The notes beneath the pieces were generated by a model that saw only the letters and a program-made list of their open reading frames with translations, was not told the DNA's origin and ran no database searches. This document shows positions 19,310 through 23,122 of a DNA stretch of 43,902 nucleotides, one piece after another. Position numbers and translations under genes: made by a program. How positions within the stretch are numbered: the stretch's first letter is position 1; the number at the start of each line of letters is the position of its first letter. Origin of the DNA: Bacteroidota bacterium (GTDB lineage: Bacteria > Bacteroidota > Bacteroidia > Bacteroidales > Rikenellaceae); contig JADFUS010000037.1 of NCBI GenBank assembly GCA_015222165.1, forward strand, positions 1 through 43,902. The letters run 5' to 3'.

Positions 19310-20173
19310 TTATTGTCCTAAATAAGATTTTAATAGTTTACTTCGTTGTGTATGACGTAGTCGTCTAACAGCTTTTTCTTTAATTTGTCGAACACGTTCT
19401 CTTGTCAAATCGAACTCATCTCCAATTTCTTCAAGTGTTTTTTCAGGACAACCTATTCCAAAGAAATAACGAACTATATCTCTTTCACGCTCAGTAAGTG
19501 TCGCCAAAGCACGTTCAACCTCTATACATAAAGACTCATTCATAAGTCCTCTATCTGCATTTGGAGAATCACCATTTACAAGAACATCTAAAAGACTATT
19601 ATCTTCACCCTCCGCAAAAGGAGCATCTACAGATACGTGTCTACCAGAAACTCTTAATGTATCAGAGATTTTCTCTTTAGGAATTTCAAGTTCTTTTGAA
19701 AGTTCTTCAGGAGAAGGAGTACGCTCATGCTCTTGCTCAAAACGAGCTAAAGCTTTATTTATTTTATTTAGAGATCCTACTTGATTTAAAGGAAGACGTA
19801 CAATTCTTGATTGTTCAGCCAAAGCTTGAAGTATCGATTGACGAATCCACCAAACAGCATATGAAATAAATTTAAATCCACGAGTTTCATCAAATTTTTC
19901 AGCTGCACGAATCAAACCTAAGTTACCTTCATTTATAAGATCGGGTAAACTTAATCCTTGATTTTGATATTGCTTTGCAACTGAGACAACAAATCTAAGA
20001 TTCGCTTTGGTAAGCTTTTCTAAGGCTAATTGATCTCCTTTACGAATACGTTGTGCAAGTTCGACCTCCTCTTCTACCGAAATTAATTCCTCTCTACCTA
20101 TCTCTTGCAAATACTTATCAAGAGATGCACTCTCTCTATTAGTAATAGATTTAGTAATCTTTAATTGTCTCAT
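19310..20173 (-). CDS. rpoD: Primary sigma factor RpoD (Bacteroidota type)
   Basis: The housekeeping sigma-70 subunit. The 287 residues begin [21 protein letters not shown] and lack region 1.1, as is typical of the phylum. Region 1.2 ([11 protein letters not shown]), region 2 with the core-binding and -10 recognition stretch ([20 protein letters not shown]), region 3, and region 4.2 helix-turn-helix ([28 protein letters not shown], quoted in part as [20 protein letters not shown]) are complete. This sigma recognises the TTTG/TAnnTTTG promoters found in this window. A TAAATTTG box lies about 98 bp upstream. Its stop is 11 bp before the GH2 gene, so the two may share a transcript. Confidence 0.97.
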
Positions 20174-20410: not shown

Positions 20411-21952
20411 TTATTTAGCGTAATTTACAGCACGAGTTTCACGAATAACTGTGATTTTCACTTGACCTGGATATGTCATCTCGTCTTGTATCTTTTTAGC
20501 GATATCTTCAGAAAGTGTTTCTGCTTCAACATCATTAATTTTATCACTACCCACAATAACTCTTAATTCACGACCTGCTTGAATGGCATATGATTTATGA
20601 ACTCCTGGATATGAAAGAGCTAAATCTTCCAACTCTTTAAGACGTTTGATATAAGATTCAACAACTTCTCTACGAGCACCTGGGCGAGCACCTGAAATAG
20701 CATCACAAACTTGAACAATAGGAGCTATTAATGAATTCATCTCTATCTCATCATGGTGAGCACCTATAGCATTAACAATATCTGCTTTCTCTTTTAATCT
20801 TTCGGCTATTTTCATACCGATAATTGCGTGAGGTAATTCTGGCTCATCATCTGGCACTTTACCAATATCATGAAGAAGACCTGCACGACGTGCTGCTTTT
20901 ACATTTAGACCAAGCTCAGACGCCATTATACCACATAGATTTGCAACCTCTCTCGAGTGTTGAAGAAGATTTTGACCATAAGAAGAACGATATTTCATTT
21001 TACCTATAAGTCTTATTATTTCTGGGTGAATTCCGTGAATACCCAAATCAACAGTTGTACGTTTACCTACATCAGCAATTTCATCTTCAACTTGTTTTTG
21101 AACTTTATTAACAACCTCCTCAATACGAGCAGGGTGAATACGTCCATCAGTAACTAATTGGTGAAGAGCCAAACGAGCTATCTCACGACGAACAGGATCG
21201 AACGCAGAAAGAATAATAGCTTCGGGAGTATCATCAACAACTATTTCAACACCAGTAGCAGCTTCTAAAGCACGAATATTACGACCTTCACGACCAATGA
21301 TACGACCTTTTACTTCATCACTATCGATATTAAAAACGGTAACCGAATTTTCCATAGCAACTTCTGTTGCAACACGTTGAATAGATTGAATAACTATTTT
21401 TTTAGCTTCTTTAGCCGCAGACATTTTGGCTTCATCAATCATTTCACTAACGTAAGTTGAAGCTTCAGCTGAAGCCTCTTGTTTGATAGATTCTATCAAA
21501 GTACCTTTTGCTTCATCACGAGACATATTACTTATTTGCTCAAGAGCAGTAAGTTGTTCGTCAAGTTTTACTTCATATTCCTTAATTTTCACATTAAGTT
21601 TTTGTTCTTGTAAAGAAGCTCTTTGTTTAATTTTGTCAACTTCTTGAGAAGATTTTTGTAATTCATTGTTTTTTGAATTAAAATCCATTTCACGTTGTTT
21701 TAAACGTGACTCAGCTTGTTGAATTTTAGAATTTTTTTCATGGAGCATTTTTTCATGCTCAGCTTTTAGGTAAAGGAACTTCTCTTTTGTTTGAAGCATC
21801 TTCTCCTTTTTCAACATTTCAGCGTCTGCTTCTGCATCTTTAAGAACTGCATCTTTCTCTTTTTTCAGACTCTTACGAGATACATGAAATGTAAGAAAAG
21901 CAGTAGCAACTGCACAAACCACTGATATAATAGCGATTATTAAGACATTCAT
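20411..21952 (-). CDS. rny: Ribonuclease Y
   Basis: Membrane-anchored endoribonuclease that initiates mRNA decay. Domains in order: an N-terminal TM helix ([20 protein letters not shown]), a long charged coiled coil at about 25-190, a KH RNA-binding domain with [15 protein letters not shown] near 215-230, and an HD catalytic domain with HSREVANL and [12 protein letters not shown]. The C-terminus [19 protein letters not shown] is characteristic. The 513 residues are the normal length. It lies downstream of zapA and the probable 6S RNA. I see no clear TAnnTTTG box in the 80 bp before its start, so it may depend on readthrough or a weak promoter. Confidence 0.97.
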
Positions 21953-22035
21953 ATTATTTTCTGTTTATTTTTAATAGTTAATATTTTATTTACTTTTACT
22001 TTTATTTCTAAGATTTTTCTATGGTAGGTATATCA

Positions 22036-22200
22036 AAAAAAATCCCACAATATTTCCGATGAAGACGAAACCCCGAATGACATGGGTAAGAGCCGTAAGC
22101 AAATCTCAGAAGTCCAACGTCCCATAAATGAGAACCACCCGAAAGCGGTTAAGGCCTTTCTTTAAAATACTGTTAACTAACTCTAATAATTAAAATGTTG
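22036..22200 (-). ncRNA. ssrS: Probable 6S RNA (ssrS)
   Basis: A ~165-bp stretch without an ORF is visibly richer in G+C than its surroundings. On the minus strand its ends pair: ACAGUAUUUU (22164-22173) with GAAAUAUUGU (22047-22056), ten base pairs including G-U. Between them are smaller hairpins, such as AACCGC...GUGGUU with a 6-nt loop. The 3' end runs GUGGGA into eight U's, typical of a terminated small RNA. Its place between zapA and rny, on the same strand as zapA, mirrors the zapA-ssrS neighbourhood known in proteobacteria. 6S RNA binds RNA polymerase holoenzyme by mimicking an open promoter. The exact ends are uncertain, and family assignment rests on structure and position, not on a model search. 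Confidence 0.65.
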
Positions 22201-22259
22201 AGTTTCGCAAAATACGAAAATATATGCGGGATATATTTTTATAGTAAAGAACGTTTATA

Positions 22260-22580
22260 TTAATAGTTATTAACTATTTTTAGAATTTCATTAAGTTTTG
22301 ATTCAAGATGTTGCTCTCTGTCATCAATTTTTCTCTCGATATTTACAAGATTTGAAGCTAAAAGTATCGAAGCATATCTAAAATAATCTTTTTCATCGGA
22401 TAATTTTGCTTCTGCCCTAAAACTATTTTCAATTTTGAGAAGTTTTTCTGCAGCTTCTCGCATTATTGATTCCTGTTTTTGAGTAAGATTAAAAGATAGC
22501 GAAGCTCCATTCACAAGTATATTAACCTTATGCACCTCTTCAGAGCCTATATCATCACTTTTAATTTTATTTTTATCCAT
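22260..22580 (-). CDS. zapA: Cell division protein ZapA
   Basis: A small cytoplasmic FtsZ-ring stabiliser. The 106 residues include the ZapA core KVNILVNGASLSFNLTQKQE, followed by EAAEKLLKIENSFRAEAKLS, DYFRYASILLASNLVNIE and a C-terminal coiled coil (EQHLESKLNEILKIV). Length and pattern fit the family. It lies 272 bp downstream of a coiled-coil gene and just upstream of the probable 6S RNA. That intergenic stretch is AT-rich and holds no ORF. Confidence 0.9.
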   Translation of the reverse strand: MDKNKIKSDDIGSEEVHKVNILVNGASLSFNLTQKQESIMREAAEKLLKIENSFRAEAKLSDEKDYFRYASILLASNLVNIERKIDDREQHLESKLNEILKIVNNY

Positions 22581-22852
22581 TTTAAAGGTCCTATAAATTT
22601 AATTTATTTCACCATAGTTATAAAGCTATGACTATAATATCATAAAAACTCACAACAAATCAAAATCAATTTTCCTTACAAAATTTCAAAAAAACACAGA
22701 TTTAAAATAATTATACAAATATATGTTTCTTTTCTCACTCTATTAAATACTTTTAACTTTTCATAAGTATTTAAATTCACAAAATACTCTATCCTTCTTT
22801 CAACTACAGCTTTTAAAACTTACCCTTCTTCCCTTTTCTAAACAAATATACT

Positions 22853-23122
22853 CTATTTATTTATTATCCTCTTGCAAGTTTCTATCTCTTTTAGTATTTC
22901 GTTGAGCCACTTTTTAGCCTGTTTCTTAGAACTTACATCAGTAAGTGCTGAGGCTATATCTTCATTCTTAACAACAAGCTTGATGTTTTTAAGCTCACGT
23001 TTTAATTCTAAATTTTCGTTTTTTAGCAATAAATTCTTTCTTTTTAGCACCACAATACTCGTCGTCATATCAACGACCCTCCTTTTTATGATGTCTAATG
23101 TTTTATCACTTATGCCCGCCAT
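22853..23122 (-). CDS. Small coiled-coil protein, possibly ZapB-like
   Basis: An 89-residue protein that is mostly one predicted coiled coil: residues 20-60 carry leucine/valine heptads (VVLKRKNLLLKNENLELKRE) and the rest is helical and charged. No catalytic motif is present. A small coiled-coil gene before zapA is common in Bacteroidota, and a role at the division ring like ZapB is plausible but only by analogy. A full TTTG-N20-TACATTTG promoter ends 5 bp before the ATG, so the mRNA should be leaderless. If so, the ATG at 23122 is the true start, and the next Met (residue 19) is less likely. Confidence 0.75.
   Translation of the reverse strand: MAGISDKTLDIIKRRVVDMTTSIVVLKRKNLLLKNENLELKRELKNIKLVVKNEDIASALTDVSSKKQAKKWLNEILKEIETCKRIINK

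Follow-up and report, generated by a model that had tools for sequence, protein, structure and literature searches.

The window, by which we mean the whole stretch of 43,902 nucleotides analysed here (contig JADFUS010000037.1, from a bacterium of the Rikenellaceae), carries on its minus strand an ORF for an 89 residue coiled-coil-like protein (22853..23122), followed in order by zapA (22260..22580), a structured RNA element (22036..22232) and rny, the gene of ribonuclease Y (20411..21952). That zapA and rny flank the element, as the initial annotation proposed, is borne out by protein models: the 513 residue product of rny matches TIGR03319 with 652 bits, as well as PF12072, and the 106 residue ZapA matches PF05164 with 23.2 bits (E 8.5e-5), just below the cut-off of 23.8, and the NCBIfam ZapA model at an E of only 0.078. 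With an iterated profile seeded with the window ZapA, 87 of 92 rny loci, that of the window among them, prove to have a ZapA ORF upstream. The zapA stop codon lies about 28 nucleotides upstream of the 5′ end of the RNA. Within 22036-22200, the stretch where a 6S RNA had been proposed, we found no overlapping ORF of 60 residues or more (ATG, GTG or TTG starts) and a G+C fraction of 0.38, compared to 0.31 for the whole window. The stretch ends as described: on the minus strand GTGGGA runs into eight T's (22048-22035), and this T run (22035..22042) resembles a terminator.

The 89 residue protein has no convincing match in Pfam or NCBIfam. Similar ORFs were found by an iterated HMM at 173 of 179 zapA loci, a figure in which some loci are copies of one place and which coiled coils can inflate. 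The position of this ORF recalls the zapB-zapA-ssrS order of Proteobacteria, with homology to ZapB not established: the ZapB family PF06005 is absent for the window protein, and in three relatives it is one among many weak coiled-coil matches (E 0.003 to 0.017). On the other side of the element, about 240 nucleotides downstream of rny and thus near the 6S gene, lies a gene for a primary-type, RpoD-like sigma factor (19310-20173, minus strand) with sigma-70 regions 1.2, 2, 3 and 4. We considered this gene as a possible link to 6S RNA and rejected it; among the 72 related loci with at least 2 kb of sequence downstream of rny, none has a same-strand counterpart there at more than 60% identity, and the sigma gene beside rny therefore looks like a local feature.

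The predicted RNA spans about 197 nucleotides (22036..22232, minus strand), its ends being predictions. The initial annotation had thus placed the RNA nearly correctly, with a 5′ end about 30 nucleotides too short. The difference matters for the fold. The shorter stretch with four bases of 3′ flank (22032-22200) is no more stable than shuffled sequence (z-score +0.60, with 141 of 200 shuffles as good), extension to 22250 gives a z-score of −2.77, and the full element 22036-22232 gives −2.89, a level reached by only 2 of 200 shuffles. At its 3′ end, GUGGGAU is paired with AUCCCGC (22232-22226), which lies beyond the stretch first proposed. The ten-base pairing between the ends of that shorter stretch proves to be a competing fold, and relatives keep another pairing.

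The predicted fold is a rod consisting of a closing stem, an interior loop, an inner stem, a bubble of 15 nucleotides on either strand and a branched apical arm, and so has what is expected of a 6S-type RNA of roughly 160-200 nucleotides, namely a closing stem, a large central bubble and an apical stem. The rod shape is also supported comparatively, on 31 and on 49 sequences. The closing stem P1 is formed by AUCCCGCA (22225..22232) and UGUGGGAU (22042..22049), and is 97.6% paired in 31 relatives; the T run is likewise present at the 3′ end of all 31, which were chosen partly by that run. The inner stem P2, found both in the predicted fold and in the comparative alignment, pairs GCGAAACUC (22200..22208) with GGGGUUUCG (22066..22074). 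Between P2 and the apical domain, the 5′ strand of the central bubble, AACAUUUUAAUUAUU (22185..22199), is unpaired in the predicted fold and is the putative start and template region for product RNA (pRNA). The apical domain (22090..22184) holds two small hairpins between GGCC and CGUUGGA and contains the covarying helices 4, 6 and 7; its landmarks are also found in members of the Rfam family RF01693, considered below. All of these parts lie on the minus strand. The template role is proposed by analogy with E. coli 6S RNA. In the 31 relatives both GCGAAACU of the P2 5′ arm (of which GCGAAACT also served as a selection motif) and the AACA of the bubble 5′ strand are invariant, and this invariance of inner stem and bubble edge fits a pRNA template strand, by analogy.

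To obtain these relatives we fetched loci from species genomes by their Rny proteins, using the best 80 of at least 595 matches, mostly from Rikenellaceae and other Bacteroidales. Addition of other searches gave 92 loci with rny, 87 of them with zapA upstream and at least two of them repeats. The spacers between zapA and rny fall in two groups, 60 of at least 220 nucleotides and 27 of at most 165, the short ones being mostly from Bacteroides, Parabacteroides, Mediterranea and the like. By eye, several of the short spacers that lack a 6S RNA (for instance L050, L053, L065, L072 and L076) show a GCACTG...CAGTGC hairpin followed by a T run. For alignment we selected spacers with CCCGC, GCGAAACT and a GG-T-run end, a choice that favours well-conserved copies and fixes those motifs; this left 34 loci, 32 of them distinct and 31 without the window. 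Further invariant blocks in the 31 relatives include AACA and GGCCT.

When these 31 sequences are aligned on sequence only, 92.7% of cells pair under the consensus structure. Changes on both sides of a pair are seen in 15 of 37 pairs, compared to a mean of 11.2 in shuffles (2 of 500 as high) and to 4 to 10 when the structure is slid by 1-3 columns; the structure counted was combined by hand from RNAalifold helices derived from the same data and is not independent of this alignment. The covariation score is 0.319, compared to 0.028-0.088 for the slid structures. An alignment of 49 sequences fitted to the model has two-sided changes in 27 of 37 pairs, compared to 16-22 for slid structures. RNAalifold applied to the raw MAFFT alignments gave two partly different consensus structures, one of which replaces the inner stem by a local UGAC/GUCA hairpin on the 3′ side; the combination of helices mentioned above preceded the count.

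Public models see little of this RNA. An Rfam-wide search of the window returned no family at its gathering cut-off, and the covariance model of canonical 6S RNA (RF00013, cut-off 46.4 bits), which the initial annotation had named as the means of confirmation, finds nothing in the whole genome at E 10; nor does the 6S-Flavo model (RF01685, cut-off 85 bits). A lax search at E 10 of the 401 bases 21900-22300 gave a single 6S-type match, to RF01693 ("Bacteroidales-1, 6S-Bacteroidales RNA suggested"), which aligns over its full length to 22037-22228. Its score of 14.7 bits is non-significant, well below the entry threshold of 60, and it ranks second among chance-level matches genome-wide. The other matches in this region (Lacto-rpoB, mir-3747, sau-41, a CRISPR repeat, AsxR and sR14) are likewise at chance level and below their cut-offs. 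In ten related loci, none of the Rfam models reached an E of 0.01. The element is thus not filed under RF00013, RF01693 or RF01685. By the standard that the initial annotation had set, the missing RF00013 match would speak against a 6S RNA; the results with clade models, however, show the public models to be too distant from this clade.

The first of these clade models, R1, is a covariance model built from the zapA-rny spacers of the 31 relatives with the window left out. It matches the window at 22038-22236 on the minus strand with 103.3 bits (E 7.3e-25), compared to 15.6 bits for the next best site in the window; the rest of the genome, in an assembly rated 58% complete, holds no further strong site (next 15.5 bits). 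Of 59 further loci, 27 have short spacers, and R1 finds the RNA in none of them; in the other 32 it succeeds 28 times, at an E of 1.4e-6 or better. The four misses are L011 and L025, which end at a contig edge within 124 nucleotides of rny, L100, which begins inside rny, and L098, which carries neither zapA nor rny. One of the 28 positive loci has its R1 site about 1.6 kb from rny. An extended clade model, R2, has a site in 55 of 61 relatives, the window's own genome included. Two of the six misses (G057 and G059) have a strong RF01693 RNA, and for the remaining four the assemblies have completeness ratings of 54 to 84%. In a set of 198 genomes taken from the phylum and searched with strict filters, 66 have an R2 site, again including the genome of the window.

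We then compared the clade models with the accepted 6S families. On the four strong RF01693 members (L089, L088, L086 and L087), R1 scores 36.7, 35.7, 19.0 and 17.1 bits, the last two near its noise level, and R2, which contains none of the four, scores 57.4, 50.9, 23.6 and 33.2 bits. When whole genomes were searched more strictly, R2 picked up only two of the four that carry these RNAs, missing the G057 and G059 mentioned above. In the reverse direction, the eight best sub-threshold RF01693 matches in the 61 relatives fall without exception between zapA and rny. Of 15 R2 loci scanned with Rfam, six have an RF01685 match at the R2 site, three of these over the cut-off, one has a sub-threshold RF00013 match (E 0.0096), and eight have no Rfam match at E 0.1. 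Among the 61 relatives RF00013 has one match at E 1, with 19.4 bits and below the cut-off; this single match (L173, genome G039, contig 36, 64196-64363, minus strand) falls exactly on the R2 site between zapA and rny. Across 32 R2-positive genomes RF00013 gives 15 matches, that of G039 again included, none of them over the cut-off; the best 13 lie on the R2 site and the two weakest elsewhere. These coincidences with RF01693, RF01685 and RF00013, together with the linkage to zapA, argue for common descent with accepted 6S RNAs. Judged by these model matches, the element is a homologue of the RF01693 and RF01685 RNAs and, with weaker support, of those in RF00013.

The likeness extends to individual features. 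RF01693 and the window element share GAAACUC on the 5′ side, GGCC, two hairpins, CG(G/U)UGGA, GG(A/G)GUUUC on the 3′ side and a G-rich closing end, in addition to matches in both model directions. They differ in that the Rfam structure leaves the closing and inner stems unpaired, whereas both are predicted to be paired in the window, and in that the four strong RF01693 members lie away from zapA-rny and have an upstream TAnnTTTG (two of these read by eye), whereas the window element sits between the two genes. 6S-Flavo occupies the same place as R2 between zapA and rny in six loci, and a boxA-like site, present in the window, is found in all eight loci of the 6S-Flavo family f29; the window's genome differs in giving no match to the 6S-Flavo model itself. 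The E. coli 6S RNA is a rod with a closing stem, a central bubble and an apical arm, which the window element resembles in all three and in size. It departs from the E. coli RNA in its branched apical arm, in having rny next to it instead of ygfA, and in apparently lacking a promoter of its own. The gene order also has a counterpart outside the phylum, as zapA lies just upstream of 6S RNA in beta- and gamma-proteobacteria, according to the available part of one study (PMC7641849).

The initial annotation saw this zapA-ssrS neighbourhood mirrored in a distant phylum, and zapA-6S is indeed found in Bacteroidia and Chlorobiaceae. Among the 120 R2-positive genomes from the sets of relatives and of the phylum (the window's own genome being in both), zapA lies at most 900 nucleotides upstream in 108, rny lies within 900 nucleotides downstream in 108, and 107 have both; one more, L200, begins at a contig edge and has rny. 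The zapA-6S-rny order is thus shared by widely separated members of the phylum, including green sulfur bacteria. The latter assignment concerns family f41, which we take to be Chlorobiaceae because the FMO protein gene is present in all five f41 genomes checked and absent from eight genomes of other families. Both zapA and rny are missing from the roughly 1.5 kb around each of the four strong RF01693 members. In the eight genomes that have the RNA elsewhere (four by RF01693 and four by R2 alone), zapA and rny are still neighbours, with a gap of 71-116 nucleotides in seven and of 205 in the eighth. Given this adjacency after relocation of the RNA, together with the widespread linkage, the phylum probably had zapA-6S-rny as its ancestral order, from which some members later departed. 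The titles and abstract openings we searched, which did not cover the main survey of 6S dissemination, contain no description of zapA-6S-rny in this phylum.

Taken together, the element at 22036..22232 is very probably the 6S RNA (ssrS) of this Rikenellaceae-type bacterium, as the initial annotation held, with the 103 bit R1 match and the coincidence of R1 and R2 sites with RF01693, RF01685 and RF00013 matches as the main evidence. Current models miss it in this clade, and the independent covariance model match and the covariation make it more than a chance resemblance. In established 6S biology the rod imitates an open promoter, holds RNA polymerase and is released on pRNA synthesis. By analogy and homology, the RNA of the window would mimic an open promoter and, under nutrient shortage, bind the RNA polymerase holoenzyme with its housekeeping sigma factor and lower transcription. 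Its release would come when that polymerase takes the 5′ strand of the bubble (AACA next to GCGAAACUC) as template for a short pRNA.

The closeness of rny could instead mean that the element acts in cis, as a structured leader or attenuator in the rny 5′ UTR that governs RNase Y synthesis, with no free-standing RNA, and both the frequency of rny within 900 nucleotides downstream (the 108 of 120 genomes given above) and the terminator-like U run at the end of the RNA would agree with this. The strong RF01693 members that stand far from zapA and rny do not, nor does the retention of zapA-rny with a 71-116 nucleotide gap in seven of the eight genomes with the RNA elsewhere. Moreover, excerpts of one report (PMC7366714) describe a Bacteroides thetaiotaomicron homologue as a 6S RNA, detected and expressed, with evidence for two pRNA classes, and we regard a leader as very unlikely. 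Still smaller is the chance that the element is a base-pairing small RNA derived from the zapA 3′-UTR that does not bind polymerase, as might be imagined from a zapA stop only about 28 nucleotides upstream and from the lack of TAnnTTTG between zapA and the RNA in the window; the conserved parts are long stems with compensatory changes, the would-be pRNA template strand is among the most conserved, and the matches are to three 6S-type Rfam families, leaving this reading hardly credible.

How a 6S RNA in this position is transcribed is a separate matter. Between the zapA stop and the RNA lies a boxA-like site, GTTCTTTACTATA (22240..22252, minus strand), and relatives have GTTCTTT.ACATA or similar in the same place. 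The pattern G[TC]TC[TA]T[TG] within 78 nucleotides occurs in 47 of 60 zapA-linked loci of the class, missing from 13, compared to 142 of 5261 control windows, and in only 2 of 56 stretches just after the RNA. It occurs in 3 of 48 zapA-linked loci outside the class and in 0 of 10 relocated copies within it (1 of 11 before L200 was moved to the linked group). Similarly, G[TC]TCTTT is found anywhere in the spacer for 49 of the 60 long spacers and none of the 27 short ones (mean length 124 nucleotides), compared to 4% of the long spacers after shuffling and to 92 of 1131 length-matched pieces of real sequence. None of the 24 Chlorobiaceae-type loci has the site. In 16 of the f41 loci (L153-L157, L159, L161-L166, L168-L170 and L172) its place directly ahead of the 6S RNA is taken by a conserved TTACATT block, possibly a promoter of the RNA's own.

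The consensus for the −7 box of Bacteroidota promoters is given as TAnnTTTG in the portion available of one paper (PMC9723704). This box is present in 1 of the 60 zapA-linked loci of the class (2 of 61 with L200), compared to 219 of 5261 controls. Among relocated copies 5 of 10 have it, which becomes 7 of 12 once two RF01693 members read by eye are counted. The difference between linked and relocated copies gives Fisher p-values of 4e-4 and 1.5e-5, which are overstated as the loci are kin by descent. In the window there is no TAnnTTTG box between zapA and the 6S RNA. Two such boxes, TATATTTG at 22716..22723 and a second consensus match at 22843-22850, both on the minus strand, lie upstream of zapA in the gap between it and the coiled-coil ORF, and are candidate promoters of a zapA-6S unit.

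As the boxA-like site is common and a TAnnTTTG of the RNA's own is rare at zapA-linked loci, we propose, at about even odds and from sequence patterns, that zapA-linked 6S RNAs of Bacteroidia are transcribed as part of an operon with boxA antitermination. In Bacteroidia with this linkage, the 6S RNA would have no promoter of its own and be transcribed from upstream of zapA, a boxA/NusB-S10 complex would shield the zapA-6S transcript from Rho, and the RNA would end at P1 and the U run, with its 5′ end trimmed. As far as the consulted part of one study goes (PMC10931766), boxA binds NusB-S10 and serves rRNA antitermination, the known part acting on Rho-dependent stops. Extended to history, this suggests an ancestral 6S RNA of Bacteroidia that was operon-embedded, without its own promoter, co-transcribed with zapA and protected by rRNA-type boxA/NusB-S10, and that on relocation lost boxA and gained a sigma-A promoter, a scenario to which we give slightly less than an even chance. 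Half of the relocated copies lack TAnnTTTG, which counts against the proposal.

The boxA reading itself is weakened by the shortness of the motif, its absence in the 24 Chlorobiaceae-type loci, its rarity in zapA-linked loci outside the class (3 of 48) and its 13 misses among 60 loci of the class. The RNA may be 6S and the GTTCTTT box nevertheless a promoter or an RNA-processing element, a view somewhat less probable than the boxA reading, given that the box sits about 20-30 nucleotides before the RNA, where a promoter could be, and that its match to rRNA leaders is short. Against this, the box is unlike TAnnTTTG, which instead marks half of the relocated copies, and similar sites are the best match in rRNA leaders: a GTTC(T/A)T core is the best-scoring site in all nine distinct 16S leaders examined, from six genomes. 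Single leader matches are only moderately unusual for so short a motif, ranking 4 to 174 of 3000 controls, from which those holding the exact training site were dropped. No 16S gene was found in the window's own assembly. The boxA of E. coli rRNA has a core similar to the GTTCTTT site, which likewise speaks for boxA.

The finding means that whole clades can appear to lack 6S RNA when viewed with current public models; in the 61 relatives RF00013 yields one sub-threshold match and RF01693 passes its cut-off in 4, compared to 55 for the clade model. It also connects RNAs kept apart in three Rfam entries into a single RNA, probably at one ancestral locus (zapA-6S-rny) from Bacteroidia to Chlorobiaceae, and offers an account of how 6S RNA may be produced inside an operon and of what changes on relocation. 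As 6S is linked to zapA in Proteobacteria and in this phylum alike, one may ask whether its expression is tied to cell division. If the operon reading is true, an embedded 6S RNA would tie a polymerase-sequestering RNA to the expression of a cell-division gene and to the availability of a ribosomal protein (S10), and the zapA-6S pairing shared with Proteobacteria would be an ancient linkage.
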